A DNA stretch of 64,000 nt from Flavobacteriaceae bacterium UJ101. GTDB lineage: Bacteria > Bacteroidota > Bacteroidia > Flavobacteriales > UJ101. The stretch covers positions 682,001 through 746,000 of the forward strand of contig CP016269.1 of assembly GCA_001880285.1 (NCBI GenBank), read 5' to 3'. Position 1 is the first letter of the stretch. Each line of letters starts with the position of its first letter. A program made the position numbers and the translations under genes. The notes under the pieces are model-generated. The model worked only from the letters and a program-made list of their open reading frames with translations, had not been told where the DNA came from and did not search any database. Below, piece by piece: positions 10,269 to 26,728 of the stretch.

Positions 10269-10538
10269 TTATTTTCTAATTCCTAATTCTTTGATAAGTT
10301 CTCTGTATCGAACAATATCTTTATCTTTTAGATAATTTAAAAGACTACGTCTTTTACCTACTAAACGCACTAACGACTTTTCAGTATTAAAATCTTTATG
10401 ATTTTTCTTTAAATGTTCTGTTAGATGGTTAATTCGATAAGTAAAAAGTGCTACTTGTCCTTCTGTAGAACCTGTGTCTTGTGCTGATTTTCCGTACTTT
10501 GCGAATATTTCAGCCTTTTTTTCTGGTGTTAAATACAT
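10269..10538 (-). CDS. rpsO: Small ribosomal subunit protein uS15
   Basis: An 89-residue protein with the exact family length. The motifs DTGSTEGQVALFTYRINHLT, KNHKDFNTEKSLVRLVGKRR and LLNYLKDKDIVRYRELIKEL are those of uS15, which binds the central domain of 16S rRNA early in 30S assembly. It has its own promoter and terminator, and pnp lies next on the same strand. Confidence 0.98.
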   Translation of the reverse strand: MYLTPEKKAEIFAKYGKSAQDTGSTEGQVALFTYRINHLTEHLKKNHKDFNTEKSLVRLVGKRRSLLNYLKDKDIVRYRELIKELGIRK

Positions 10539-10572
10539 TCCAATATTATTTAATGATTATTATGTATGGCGG

Positions 10573-10580
10573 CAAAGATA
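10573..10580 (-). promoter_or_regulatory. rpsO promoter, -7 element
   Basis: Minus strand TATCTTTG, exact consensus, 34 bases before the rpsO start codon. Confidence 0.55.
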
Positions 10581-22472: not shown

Positions 22473-22509
22473 CAAAAAGACCGAATTATTTTCGGTCTTT
22501 TTGTTTTTT
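22473..22509 (+). terminator. susCD operon terminator
   Basis: A 13-bp stem, CAAAAAGACCGAA / TTCGGTCTTTTTG, with a five-base loop and a T run. Confidence 0.9.
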
Positions 22510-22594
22510 ACTTATACAATATTCTTAAAAAAAGCCTGTTTTTATTATCAAATAGTTAAAAATGAACTTTTTGTTAAAAAAACACTTAAGTTCG

Positions 22595-22625
22595 TTTGTT
22601 TCTTTAAATACAATTCCTACTTTTG
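22595..22625 (+). promoter_or_regulatory. Promoter of the phe/tyr operon
   Basis: TTTG (22595-22598), a spacer of exactly 19 bases and TACTTTTG (22618-22625) match both halves of the Bacteroidota promoter. Transcription should start near 22630, just before the leader peptide start. Confidence 0.75.
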
Positions 22626-22633
22626 ACAACATA

Positions 22634-22690
22634 ATGATGAATTGGAACACATATACAAACTTTTATTTTTACTTCTTTTTTAAGGATTAG
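22634..22690 (+). CDS. Phe/Tyr leader peptide of an attenuator
   Basis: An 18-codon ORF encoding MMNWNTYTNFYFYFFFKD. Nine of 18 residues are aromatic: five Phe, three Tyr and one Trp, with seven of them in a row (codons 10-16). It sits between a consensus promoter and a terminator just before pheA, like the pheL peptide of enterobacteria. The peptide is a sensor: ribosomes would stall on the aromatic codons when charged Phe- or Tyr-tRNA is scarce. The stop codon TAG overlaps the first bases of the antiterminator arm. No stable product is expected. Confidence 0.85.
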   Translation: MMNWNTYTNFYFYFFFKD

Positions 22691-22759
22691 AGGTGATTTT
22701 TGTATATGCTAAAAATATAACAACCATTGCCTCTTGATATTTTCAAGAGGTTTTTTTTT
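22689..22759 (+). promoter_or_regulatory. Attenuator: competing antiterminator and terminator hairpins before pheA
   Basis: The terminator is CCTCTTGA (22730-22737) / TCAAGAGG (22743-22750) followed by nine Ts (22751-22759), ending 11 bases before the pheA ATG. The antiterminator pairs AGAGGTGAT (22689-22697) with ATTGCCTCT (22726-22734), 9 bp including two G-U pairs, and continues inside with TTGTATAT (22700-22707) against 22715-22723, 8 bp with one bulged A. The two structures share 22730-22734 and cannot coexist. A ribosome at the leader stop codon would cover the 5' antiterminator arm and allow termination; one stalled early in the aromatic run would leave it free. Confidence 0.85.
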
Positions 22760-22770
22760 GAAATAAATTT

Positions 22771-23601
22771 ATGACAACAAAAAAAATAGCCATACAGGGA
22801 ATTAAAGGTTCATTTCATGATGAAGCTGCACATATTCTATTCAATACGCAGCCTATCGAAATCATAGAATGTTTCACCTTTAAAGATGTTGCAAAATCAA
22901 TCATAAATAATGAAGCAGATTATGGAATCATGGCAATTGAAAACTCCATAGCAGGCTCTATATTACCCAATTACAACTTGTTGATTGAATATAATCTGAA
23001 AATTATTGATGAATTATACATGCCTATAAATCATTATTTAATGGCTCAATCAGGACAAAAGATAGAACAAATTAAAGAAGTAAATTCACACCCAATGGCC
23101 TTAATGCAATGCGAAAATTATTTTGAACCTTATCCTAAAATTCGAATGGTTGAAGTAGCCGACACGGCCTTAGCTGCCAAGCGAATTGTAGACCAAGATT
23201 TAGAAGAAATTGCAGCTATAGCTCCAAAACGCTCTGCCAATGTTTATGGTTTGGAAATTTTAGGTGAAAAAATTCAAACTGTTAAAAATAACTTTACACG
23301 ATTTTTTGTTATTCAAAAAGATGAACATAGTATCTCACATTTCAATAAAGTATCTATTAAATTTAAAGTATCACACGAATCAGGCTCTTTAGCACAAATT
23401 TTAAATCAAATTGCTTTTAGAAGAATTAACATGAGTAAGATTCAATCAGTCCCGGTTATTGAAGAACCTTGGAACTATGCTTTTTTTGCTGATCTAATTT
23501 TAGATGAAGGCTCAGAATTTGATACTTTTTTAGAAAGTGTCCGTCCATTAGTAAAAGATCTTAAGATTTTAGGGAAATATCAAAATAAAAGAACGTTATG
23601 A
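22771..23601 (+). CDS. pheA: Prephenate dehydratase
   Basis: A 276-residue monofunctional enzyme that converts prephenate to phenylpyruvate. The catalytic domain spans about 1-180 (IAIQGIKGSFHDEAA; ADYGIMAIENSIAGSI; the conserved NFTRFFVI with Thr-Arg-Phe). A regulatory ACT domain follows (HESGSLAQILNQIAFRRINM). The usual ESRP phenylalanine-binding motif reads QSVP here, so feedback inhibition may differ. The chorismate mutase is not fused to it; it sits at the C-terminus of the DAHP synthase at the end of the operon. First structural gene behind the attenuator; overlaps the next gene by four bases. Confidence 0.95.
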   Translation: MTTKKIAIQGIKGSFHDEAAHILFNTQPIEIIECFTFKDVAKSIINNEADYGIMAIENSIAGSILPNYNLLIEYNLKIIDELYMPINHYLMAQSGQKIEQIKEVNSHPMALMQCENYFEPYPKIRMVEVADTALAAKRIVDQDLEEIAAIAPKRSANVYGLEILGEKIQTVKNNFTRFFVIQKDEHSISHFNKVSIKFKVSHESGSLAQILNQIAFRRINMSKIQSVPVIEEPWNYAFFADLILDEGSEFDTFLESVRPLVKDLKILGKYQNKRTL

Positions 23602-24770
23602 TCCAAACAGCACAACGCTTACAACATATAAAAGAGTATTACTTTTCTATTAAATTAAAAGAAATTAAACGTAGAAATGAAGCAGGAGAAAATATTATCA
23701 ATTTGGGTATAGGAAGTCCTGACCTCTTACCTCCTACTTCCGTTATCAAAGCATTACAAAATACTTCTGAAGAATTGTTAGCTAATAAATACCAATCCTA
23801 TATTGGTACTGATGATTTACGTAAAGAAATAAGCAATTGGTATGCAAAACATTTCAATATCTCATTAAATCCTTCTAATGAAATACTCCCCCTTTTAGGC
23901 TCTAAAGAAGGAATTATGCATATTTCTATGACTTTTTTAAACAAAGGAGATTGTGTTCTAGTACCCAATCCTGGTTACCCAACCTATTCTTCTGTTTCCA
24001 ATCTAGTTGAAGCTTCTATTTTATCTTATGACTTAGAAGAAAGCAATCATTGGTTACCATCACTAGAACAATTAAAATCAATGCCTTTAGACCAAGTTAA
24101 AATAATGTGGATTAACTACCCTAATATGCCTACTGGAGCTAAAGGTGATCAAAATATACTAGAAGAGTTAATTCAACTCGCTATAAAACATAATTTTATC
24201 ATTGTTAATGATAATCCTTATAGCTTTATTTTAAATGATGATCCTATCAGTATTTTACAATTAAAAGATGCTAAAAAATGCTGTTTAGAGTTAAATTCTT
24301 TAAGTAAGCTGTACAATATGGCTGGTTGGCGAGTAGGAATGGTTTCAGGAAATGAAAAACTCATTACTGAAATTTTAAAAGTAAAAAGCAATGTAGATTC
24401 TGGAATGTATTTACCTATACAAAAAGGTGCTATTGAAGCTTTAAAACAACCTAAATCTTGGTTTGATCAACTTAATCAAGAATATAGAAACCGACGTAAA
24501 TTAGTTTGGGAAATATGCGATCATCTCAATTTATCATATGATAAAAATCGAAGTGGAATGTTCATCTGGGCAAAAATTCAAAATAAGCAAAATAGTATCG
24601 ATTGGTGTGAAGAGAAACTCAATACAAATAAAGTTTTCATTACACCTGGAACTATTTTTGGAAGTAACGGAGAAGGTTATGTTCGGTTTTCTTTATGCGC
24701 ACCTGCTGAAGTTTTAAAAGAATCATTGGATAGATTAACAAAAAATCTCACTAAAATTGAATACCACTAA
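23598..24770 (+). CDS. PLP aminotransferase of the phe/tyr operon
   Basis: A 390-residue class I/II aminotransferase. The start is typical (NIINLGIGSPDLLPP), the Schiff-base lysine lies in LNSLSKLYNMAGWRVGMVSG, and the C-terminal arginine in YVRFSLCAP binds the carboxylate. It resembles LL-diaminopimelate and aromatic aminotransferases. Position between pheA and tyrA indicates that it makes phenylalanine and tyrosine from phenylpyruvate and 4-hydroxyphenylpyruvate (inference from context). Its start overlaps the pheA stop (ATGA), so translation is coupled. Confidence 0.92.
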   Translation: MIQTAQRLQHIKEYYFSIKLKEIKRRNEAGENIINLGIGSPDLLPPTSVIKALQNTSEELLANKYQSYIGTDDLRKEISNWYAKHFNISLNPSNEILPLLGSKEGIMHISMTFLNKGDCVLVPNPGYPTYSSVSNLVEASILSYDLEESNHWLPSLEQLKSMPLDQVKIMWINYPNMPTGAKGDQNILEELIQLAIKHNFIIVNDNPYSFILNDDPISILQLKDAKKCCLELNSLSKLYNMAGWRVGMVSGNEKLITEILKVKSNVDSGMYLPIQKGAIEALKQPKSWFDQLNQEYRNRRKLVWEICDHLNLSYDKNRSGMFIWAKIQNKQNSIDWCEEKLNTNKVFITPGTIFGSNGEGYVRFSLCAPAEVLKESLDRLTKNLTKIEYH

Positions 24771-24780
24771 AATTGATACA

Positions 24781-25638
24781 ATGAAAATAGCCATAATAGG
24801 TTTAGGTTTAATGGGAGGCTCTATCGCCTTAGGATTAAGACGTAGCAGTTTTGGTTCTAAATTTATTGGTATTGATCAAAGTTCAATCAATGCACAAGAT
24901 GCATTAGATTTAAAAATAGTTGATTCAATTACAACAATAGATAAAATTCCTGAAGTTGATATCATCATTTTAGCAACTCCTATTGATACTATTAAAAGCA
25001 TGTTGCCAAAAATTTTAGATCAAATAACCAACAAAACCTACGTAATTGATTTAGGATCAACTAAAAGGCGTTGTTGCAAGGCTGTAATCAATCATCCTAA
25101 AAGAAAACAATACATAGCAACACATCCTATGGCAGGAACAGAAAATTCAGGTCCCAAAGCTGCTTTTGCTGAATTATTTTTAAATAAAGTAGCTGTAATT
25201 TGTGATCAGGAGTTAAGTGATCCAAAGGGGGTTGAGTTAATTAAAAAACTCTATGCTTCTTTATGGATGAGAACAATTGAAATGAGCTCTGAAGAACATG
25301 ATCGTCATATTGCATATGTTTCACATTTATCACATGTAACTTCTTTTGCTTTAGGTAATACAGTGTTAAACATCGAAAAAAATGAAAAAAATATTTTCGA
25401 TATGGCAAGTACAGGTTTTGCTTCTACAGTTCGCTTAGCAAAAAGTTCCCCCGAAATGTGGGCTCCTATTTTTGAACACAATAAAGACAACGTTTTGTTT
25501 GCTTTAGATGCTTACATTAAAAATTTAGAATATATAAAAAATATGCTTTCTCAAAATCAATTTGATAAAATTAAAAATTATATGAGCGAAACAAATGATA
25601 TTCGCAGAATTTTAAACGGAATAAATAATATAAAATAA
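24781..25638 (+). CDS. tyrA: Prephenate dehydrogenase
   Basis: A 285-residue NAD(P)-dependent enzyme producing 4-hydroxyphenylpyruvate for tyrosine. The Rossmann motif GLGLMGGSIA is at the start, and the catalytic region has ATHPMAGTENSGP and HDRHIAYVSHLSH, whose histidines match the prephenate-binding site. There is no fused chorismate mutase or clear ACT domain. I chose the ATG at 24781, directly before the nucleotide-binding fold; an ATG at 24757 would overlap the previous gene and add eight unusual residues. Third structural gene of the attenuated operon. Confidence 0.93.
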   Translation: MKIAIIGLGLMGGSIALGLRRSSFGSKFIGIDQSSINAQDALDLKIVDSITTIDKIPEVDIIILATPIDTIKSMLPKILDQITNKTYVIDLGSTKRRCCKAVINHPKRKQYIATHPMAGTENSGPKAAFAELFLNKVAVICDQELSDPKGVELIKKLYASLWMRTIEMSSEEHDRHIAYVSHLSHVTSFALGNTVLNIEKNEKNIFDMASTGFASTVRLAKSSPEMWAPIFEHNKDNVLFALDAYIKNLEYIKNMLSQNQFDKIKNYMSETNDIRRILNGINNIK

Positions 25639-25639
25639 C

Positions 25640-26728
25640 ATGGAAAACCTATTAGACAAAGATCAAAAATGGGCAAAAGAATTTGGACAGCCCATCGTAA
25701 TTGCTGGACCCTGCTCTGCTGAGAGTGAAGAGCAAATGCTAGAAACTGCACACAGAATGGACAAAACTTATGTCAATGTTTTCCGTGCGGGAATATGGAA
25801 ACCTCGAACAAAACCAGGTTCTTTTGAAGGTGTTGGTGAAATCGGGTTAAAATGGTTAAATAAAGTAAAAGAGGAAACCGGTTTTAAAACGGCAACGGAA
25901 ATAGCCAATGCTGAACATGCAAAATTAGCTTTAGAGTACGATATCGATTACTTATGGATCGGTGCACGTTCTACTGTAAGCCCTTTTATTGTACAAGAAA
26001 TTGCTGAAGCTATTAAAGGTACAAAAAAACCGGTTATTGTTAAAAACCCTGTAAATCCTGATTTAGAATTATGGATTGGAGCATTAGAACGATTTGCTTC
26101 TCAAGGAATTGAAAACTTAGGAGTAATTCACCGTGGTTTTTCAACCTACAAGAAAACCAAATATCGTAACAAGCCTAAATGGCAAATGGCACTCGATTTT
26201 AAAAAACGTCTACCTAATATTCCTATGTTAATTGACCCTTCTCATATAGCAGGAAATCGAGAACTATTATATGAAGTTTCTCAACAAGCTTTTGATTTAG
26301 AATATGATGGAATTATGATTGAAAGTCATCGAAATCCAGATGAGGCTTGGAGTGATGCAAAACAACAAGTAACACCGGAACGTGTTTTAGAAATTATTAA
26401 AGCTATTGAGTTAAGAAGACAATCCTCTGATAGTTCTATTTACAACTCCGCCTTACAAACGTTACGTTATGAAATTGATGAGTTAGATCAAGGTTTATTA
26501 GATGCATTAGCACACCGAATGAAAGTTTCAGAACAAATTGGTAAATTAAAAAAAGAAAATAATATTGCTATTTACCAACCTAATCGTTGGGATAACTTAT
26601 TAGAAAAAGCTAAAATTGATGGTGAAAAATCAGGTTTATCAACCGAAATGGTAGAGCAAATATACAAAGCCATCCACCAAGCTTCCATTGATATACAAAG
26701 CAAGATTATGATTGATAAAAATTCATAA
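25640..26728 (+). CDS. DAHP synthase with C-terminal chorismate mutase
   Basis: A 362-residue fusion. Residues 1 to about 260 are a type I-beta (KdsA-like) 3-deoxy-7-phosphoheptulonate synthase: IAGPCSAESEEQM, FRAGIWKPRTKPGSFEG, and metal and phosphate ligands in LIDPSHIAGNREL and GIMIESHRNP. Residues from about 268 are an AroQ chorismate mutase (LRYEIDELDQGLLDALAHRM with the K-x-x-N-x-x-I-Y-Q core). It commits carbon to the shikimate pathway and turns chorismate into prephenate for the other operon enzymes. Such C-terminal fusions are known in Bacteroidota such as Prevotella, where the mutase domain senses prephenate. It starts one base after the tyrA stop. Confidence 0.95.
   Translation: MENLLDKDQKWAKEFGQPIVIAGPCSAESEEQMLETAHRMDKTYVNVFRAGIWKPRTKPGSFEGVGEIGLKWLNKVKEETGFKTATEIANAEHAKLALEYDIDYLWIGARSTVSPFIVQEIAEAIKGTKKPVIVKNPVNPDLELWIGALERFASQGIENLGVIHRGFSTYKKTKYRNKPKWQMALDFKKRLPNIPMLIDPSHIAGNRELLYEVSQQAFDLEYDGIMIESHRNPDEAWSDAKQQVTPERVLEIIKAIELRRQSSDSSIYNSALQTLRYEIDELDQGLLDALAHRMKVSEQIGKLKKENNIAIYQPNRWDNLLEKAKIDGEKSGLSTEMVEQIYKAIHQASIDIQSKIMIDKNS

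Follow-up and report, generated by a model that had tools for sequence, protein, structure and literature searches.

The region upstream of pheA in Flavobacteriaceae bacterium UJ101 carries an element that, in all likelihood, is a classical ribosome-mediated transcription attenuator of the phenylalanine/tyrosine (phe/tyr) operon, sensing both Phe and Tyr. This reading, which the initial annotation of the region had proposed together with the joint sensing of the two amino acids, is supported by class-wide conservation, by co-variation between the paired arms and by a model of ribosome position. The element combines a leader open reading frame (ORF) rich in F and Y codons, a terminator before the first gene, an antiterminator that excludes the terminator and shows compensatory change, and a protector hairpin between regions 1 and 2 (1:2).

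The features of the locus are collected in Table 1, with positions counted in the window, the 64,000-nucleotide stretch of DNA that was analysed. Read in order, the gap before pheA holds a hairpin with a T-run, a promoter-like sequence, the aromatic-rich ORF (17 or 18 codons) and a terminator with nine Ts. The first hairpin is, judging by its sequence, the separator between the SusD-like gene and the pheA unit. The annotation had placed the whole phe/tyr pathway under this control, and the operon indeed contains genes for prephenate dehydratase, an aminotransferase, prephenate dehydrogenase and DAHP synthase-chorismate mutase. The pheA product also matches NCBIfam PRK11898, under the cut-off. 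For tyrA the start at 24784 was chosen; the ORF list has a TTG at 24757. Elsewhere in the window, Rfam matches an S15-Flavobacteria ribosomal protein leader at 10536-10580 of the minus strand (53.9 bits).

Table 1. Features of the pheA locus, with positions in the window
Feature	Position	Strand	Basis
SusD-like gene, upstream of the pheA unit	ends 22423		
Terminator-like hairpin and T-run, intrinsic type, 3' of the SusD-like gene	22474..22511	+	AAAAAGACCGAATTATTTTCGGTCTTTTTG; sequence read
Promoter-like sequence, Bacteroidota type, TTTG-N19-TACTTTTG (TTTG 22595-22598, 19-base spacer, TACTTTTG 22618-22625)	22595..22625	+	sequence read
Leader ORF, M(M)NWNTYTNFYFYFFFKD and stop	22634..22690	+	F/Y-rich counterparts in relatives
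1:2 hairpin domain, 22650-22659/22699-22708 and inner stems	22650..22708	+	-16.5 kcal/mol
Regulatory codons, F-Y-F-Y-F-F-F	22661..22681	+	sequence read
Region 2, 5' arm of the antiterminator, overlapping the leader stop codon	22689..22697	+	folding, co-variation
Region 3, 3' arm of the antiterminator	22726..22734	+	folding
Terminator, regions 3 and 4 (22729-22737/22743-22751) and nine Ts (22751-22759)	22729..22759	+	sequence read, folding
pheA, prephenate dehydratase with C-terminal regulatory part	22771..23601	+	PF00800, 1.1e-59
Class I/II aminotransferase	23598..24770	+	PF00155, 4e-51
tyrA, prephenate dehydrogenase	24784..25638	+	NCBIfam PRK08507, 4e-110, above cut-off
aroF-aroQ, DAHP synthase fused to chorismate mutase	25640..26728	+	PF00793 and PF01817

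The two-part promoter is present at the positions first given for it, but its pattern alone is not above chance (3 occurrences in the window versus 2.9 expected), and it is the position that counts. Transcription is predicted to start at about 22629-22632. The leader starts at ATG 22634 or 22637 and stops at TAG 22688-22690, which gives 18 or 17 residues; among the 18 are nine aromatics, namely W, Y and then F-Y-F-Y-F-F-F without a break, in agreement with the annotated 18-codon peptide with seven aromatics in a row. Runs of seven aromatic codons number 41 in the genome versus 44 for the reversed pattern, and are thus not above chance by themselves, while the probability of such a run arising by chance in a 150-base gap is near 0.001 (about 7e-6 per position). 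As the promoter and the aromatic run each occur at chance frequency, the case rests on their arrangement and on conservation.

Only a few bases separate the predicted transcription start from the leader ATG. The transcript would then have no or almost no 5' UTR, and the mRNA that encodes the leader peptide may be leaderless or nearly so; the corresponding distance appears longer in relatives. A Trp codon is found at 22640-22645, 5' of the F/Y run, and W is present in 69 of 132 distinct leaders. This codon may provide added sensing of Trp, which would fit the DAHP synthase in the operon, or may reflect mere shared ancestry.

Folding of the leader region supports three hairpins. The terminator (3:4) has an energy of -12.8 kcal/mol and its T-run ends 11 bases before the pheA ATG at 22771. 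The antiterminator (2:3), formed by 22689-22697/22726-22734 and 22700-22707/22715-22723, reaches -13.1 kcal/mol, and the two structures exclude one another. Sequence and folding thus bear out both the intrinsic terminator and the alternative antiterminator (22689-22734) described in the initial annotation, whose coordinates were all correct. The annotation gave two of the three hairpins; absent from it was the 1:2 domain, in which 22699-22708 is bound by early leader codons and the sequence surrounding the stop codon by the aromatic stretch. It had also suggested comparing both structures by folding: the antiterminator exists as an alternative, but the complete leader reaches its energy minimum with the 1:2 domain (22650-22708) combined with the terminator. 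The whole leader is more stable than its dinucleotide shuffles (z -5.2, with 0 of 200 as stable). In the folding model, the 1:2 hairpin is what sequesters the antiterminator arm in the absence of a ribosome, completing a classical three-hairpin attenuator.

These elements suggest the following sequence of events. RNA polymerase would start at about 22630 and a ribosome would enter the leader ORF at once. When Phe-tRNA or Tyr-tRNA is scarce, the ribosome would wait in the F-Y-F-Y-F-F-F run and cover the 5' half of the 1:2 hairpin, so that region 2 would be freed to pair with region 3, the terminator would be blocked, and pheA, the aminotransferase gene, tyrA and aroF-aroQ would be transcribed. 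With both amino acids plentiful, the ribosome would reach the stop codon over region 2 and the terminator would form; it would also form if no ribosome had loaded, region 2 then being held in the 1:2 hairpin. In either case transcription would stop before pheA. We infer from the anatomy of the element that the leader is translated, that ribosomes stall on uncharged tRNA and that read-through changes as a result.

To model the effect of the ribosome, its footprint was assumed to reach from -14 to +15 relative to the A-site and was masked codon by codon, and the pairing of region 2 with region 3 was read out before region 4 is made, as a normalised sum of pair probabilities, P(2:3), that can slightly exceed 1. 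At this locus, P(2:3) is 0.06 without a ribosome, rises to about 1 when any of codons 2-13 occupies the A-site, drops to 0.75 for F14 and is 0.00 from F15 to the stop. Of the 43 dereplicated loci, 42 show more 2:3 pairing with a ribosome halted among the aromatic codons than with one at the stop codon, and 17 also show clearly more than without any ribosome; in several loci (L022, L076, L083 and L086) the model leaves 2:3 on with a ribosome at the stop. In the model, then, a stall at the regulatory codons frees region 2 and a ribosome at the stop hides it. Many relatives have a high modelled 2:3 pairing even without a ribosome, and termination without translation is therefore not general. The scan is an equilibrium model with kinetics left out, and since the terminator wins almost always at full equilibrium, the argument depends on the order of folding during transcription. 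The overlap of the stop codon with the antiterminator arm, pointed out in the annotation, exists here but not in most relatives, whose leader ORF continues through the arm.

To determine how widely the element is kept, PheA was searched for in the genus and family, which yielded this genome only, and the order and class were sampled instead (396 genomes and 203 matches for the order; 396 genomes and 119 matches for the class). We fetched 140 upstream regions, 100 from the order and 40 from the class, and searched a collection with organism names (80 loci); L010, L018, L040 and L055 were excluded because the script found no pheA start. A leader was counted when at least five F/Y occurred in nine codons and a terminator followed. 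By this measure, a leader whose nine-codon core holds 5-9 F/Y precedes pheA, together with a terminator, in 79 of the 100 fetched order relatives, in 69 of the 80 named loci, including those of Winogradskyella, Maribacter, Tenacibaculum, Lutibacter, Aquimarina, Moheibacter, Faecalibacter and Capnocytophaga, and in 26 of the 40 class-wide loci, which come from 14 of the 18 sampled families outside the order. A candidate aromatic run was seen in 83 loci, with the terminator uncalled in L015 only. The order-level and named sets together contain 132 distinct leaders, each with both F and Y in its core, and the gene order pheA-aminotransferase-tyrA-aroFQ is found in 62 of the 80 named loci.

This distribution bears on the idea that a plain terminator happens to follow a chance aromatic ORF, regulation residing elsewhere. 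The base composition of the window (31% GC) would make such ORFs easy to come by, as the genome-wide count of seven-aromatic runs illustrates. However, leader, terminator and alternative pairing recur together in relatives with a PheA identity of only 41-50%, the leaders are present also in regions with 49-62% GC, and the element is found at the head of a rearranged cluster (see below). Conservation and co-variation contradict a chance origin, which we hold to be extremely improbable.

The paired regions change together between lineages. Region 3 differs by lineage (GCCTC, AGTCTCG, AATCCCG and GACCGC among others), with accompanying changes in regions 2 and 4. Since the register of 2:3 shifts from one lineage to the next, a base-pair count on the MAFFT alignment A1 was set aside in favour of an alignment-free swap test. 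The pairing of each region 2 with its own region 3 sums to 843, while 20,000 permutations among the loci peak at 699 (none attains 843); as the loci are mutually related, this count is no exact probability, and swaps between close relatives make the test harder, not easier. Locus by locus, 2:3 pairing beats shuffles (p<0.05) in 39 of 43, and 1:2 pairing in only 28 of 43. The conservation and compensatory changes that the annotation had named as its own test were thus found, with the aromatic leader kept and the arms co-varying, and nothing in them refutes it.

The same alignment is informative about mechanisms in which a metabolite or protein binds the leader RNA, as in a riboswitch, and the ORF is incidental. 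The untranslated RNA folds strongly by itself, as such a mechanism would demand. Nevertheless, the 43 aligned loci have a mean column identity of 50%, with little primary sequence kept outside the paired arms and the F/Y codons, whereas the ORF and its regulatory codons are kept across the class. Rfam gives no family at gathering level and no convincing weak match, and we judge translation-independent control highly improbable. In the permissive Rfam search, manA-II (24.2 bits versus a gathering score of 100) and PyrR (21.9 bits versus 54) appear to be chance matches driven by the terminator; the T-box family gave no match at the leader at either gathering or permissive level.

An arrest peptide of the TnaC type, sensing free phenylalanine or tyrosine in the exit tunnel instead of uncharged tRNA, would seem alike at first, as it too would present a short leader with conserved aromatics before the regulated operon. 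Tunnel sensing would, however, require conserved positions, and no fixed motif is present: the order of F and Y, the length and the C-terminal residues vary by lineage, and only the F/Y content is kept. In addition, arrest by excess product would require the opposite logic at these hairpins. We therefore regard an arrest peptide as very unlikely and attenuation by stalling on uncharged tRNA as the probable mechanism at this locus.

Leaders were not found everywhere. None is present in part of Weeksellaceae, in family f26 as sampled, at the more distant of the PheA loci in family f5, or upstream of pheA in Blattabacterium (L172), an insect symbiont whose genome measures about 0.6 Mb; genus g21, with a 0.6 Mb genome, is presumed to be Blattabacterium too. 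In a 1.3 Mb genome (G316, locus L020) from the family that includes g21, the stretch from region 2 to the terminator is tandemly duplicated before pheA (GGGCTTTGTGTATTAACTTGATATTTTTTATC repeated). The pheA genes of Echinicola, Algoriphagus and Belliella are not preceded by a leader; an F/Y leader with a terminator stands before aroF-aroQ, 3.5-4.3 kb upstream of pheA (L155, L159, L180, L205 and L214). There aroF-aroQ is the first gene of a rearranged cluster, the leader has the same logic of regions 2, 3 and 4, and the genes would form one transcript, to judge by their order. Taken with the class-wide distribution, we lean towards the view that a single attenuator responsive to Phe and Tyr (perhaps also Trp) already controlled the entire aromatic branch in the ancestor of Bacteroidia and has done so ever since, in organisms without Shine-Dalgarno leaders, staying with the head of the operon when the genes were reshuffled.

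Other amino-acid operons of the genome were also inspected. Upstream of hisG lies a His-rich leader, MNINRLHHHPHYKNFTEVSE and stop (L113:332-394), followed by a strong terminator (about 420-455), which suggests that leader attenuation is probably used at least twice in this genome. No Trp-rich leader was found within about 1.4 kb upstream of trpE, and no ILV-type leader with a terminator in the nearby stretch examined at ilvD, so that not every amino-acid operon here is shown to use leader attenuation.

The transcriptome of F. psychrophilum (ISME Commun. 2021; PMC9723704) speaks against any suggestion that the element is the first such case in flavobacteria. Its main text describes a transcribed element with structure 5' of pheA, which is said to occur in other Flavobacteriaceae genera, and strong clues to leader-peptide attenuation at amino-acid biosynthesis operons (PMC9723704). 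Gene and position are the same as here, and the Flavobacteriaceae loci in our set carry the attenuator; to judge from that main text, the kind of attenuation is on record and this element in the neighbouring family very probably is as well (PMC9723704). F. psychrophilum and UJ101 share an order but not a family, and our survey traces the element through the class. The main text leaves the leader peptide, hairpins and sensed amino acids at pheA unstated, and we did not find in it the detailed anatomy, the Phe and Tyr logic, the class-wide spread or the move to aroF-aroQ (PMC9723704). Beyond this paper, our literature searches found no phe/tyr attenuator in Bacteroidota.

The element provides a concrete, class-wide case of leader-peptide attenuation in Bacteroidota, where it has mostly been noted in passing. 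It would imply that a ribosome follows close behind RNA polymerase at the start of the transcript in these bacteria, and offers a ready reporter for testing that closeness. The mixed F/Y leader indicates how one element can govern a combined phe/tyr operon. No Rfam family covers the element, and the loci found here could build one.

Leader-peptide attenuation is a textbook mechanism, and the form described here is ordinary, well made and widely kept. Bacteroid-trp, a tryptophan leader-peptide element, concerns another operon and another amino acid. It is catalogued as RF01692, a predicted cis-regulatory leader in Bacteroidetes (PMC2864571). The family has no match in this genome, and a control Bacteroides genome gives one. 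A close parallel in design is the enterobacterial pheL leader, whose regulatory codons are for Phe and which acts on pheA only. The two systems share codons for the end product in the leader, the 1:2, 2:3 and 3:4 hairpins and a terminator before pheA, but have no sequence relation (no Rfam match), and in the element described here F and Y codons are mixed and a single operon unites the phe, tyr and first-step genes.
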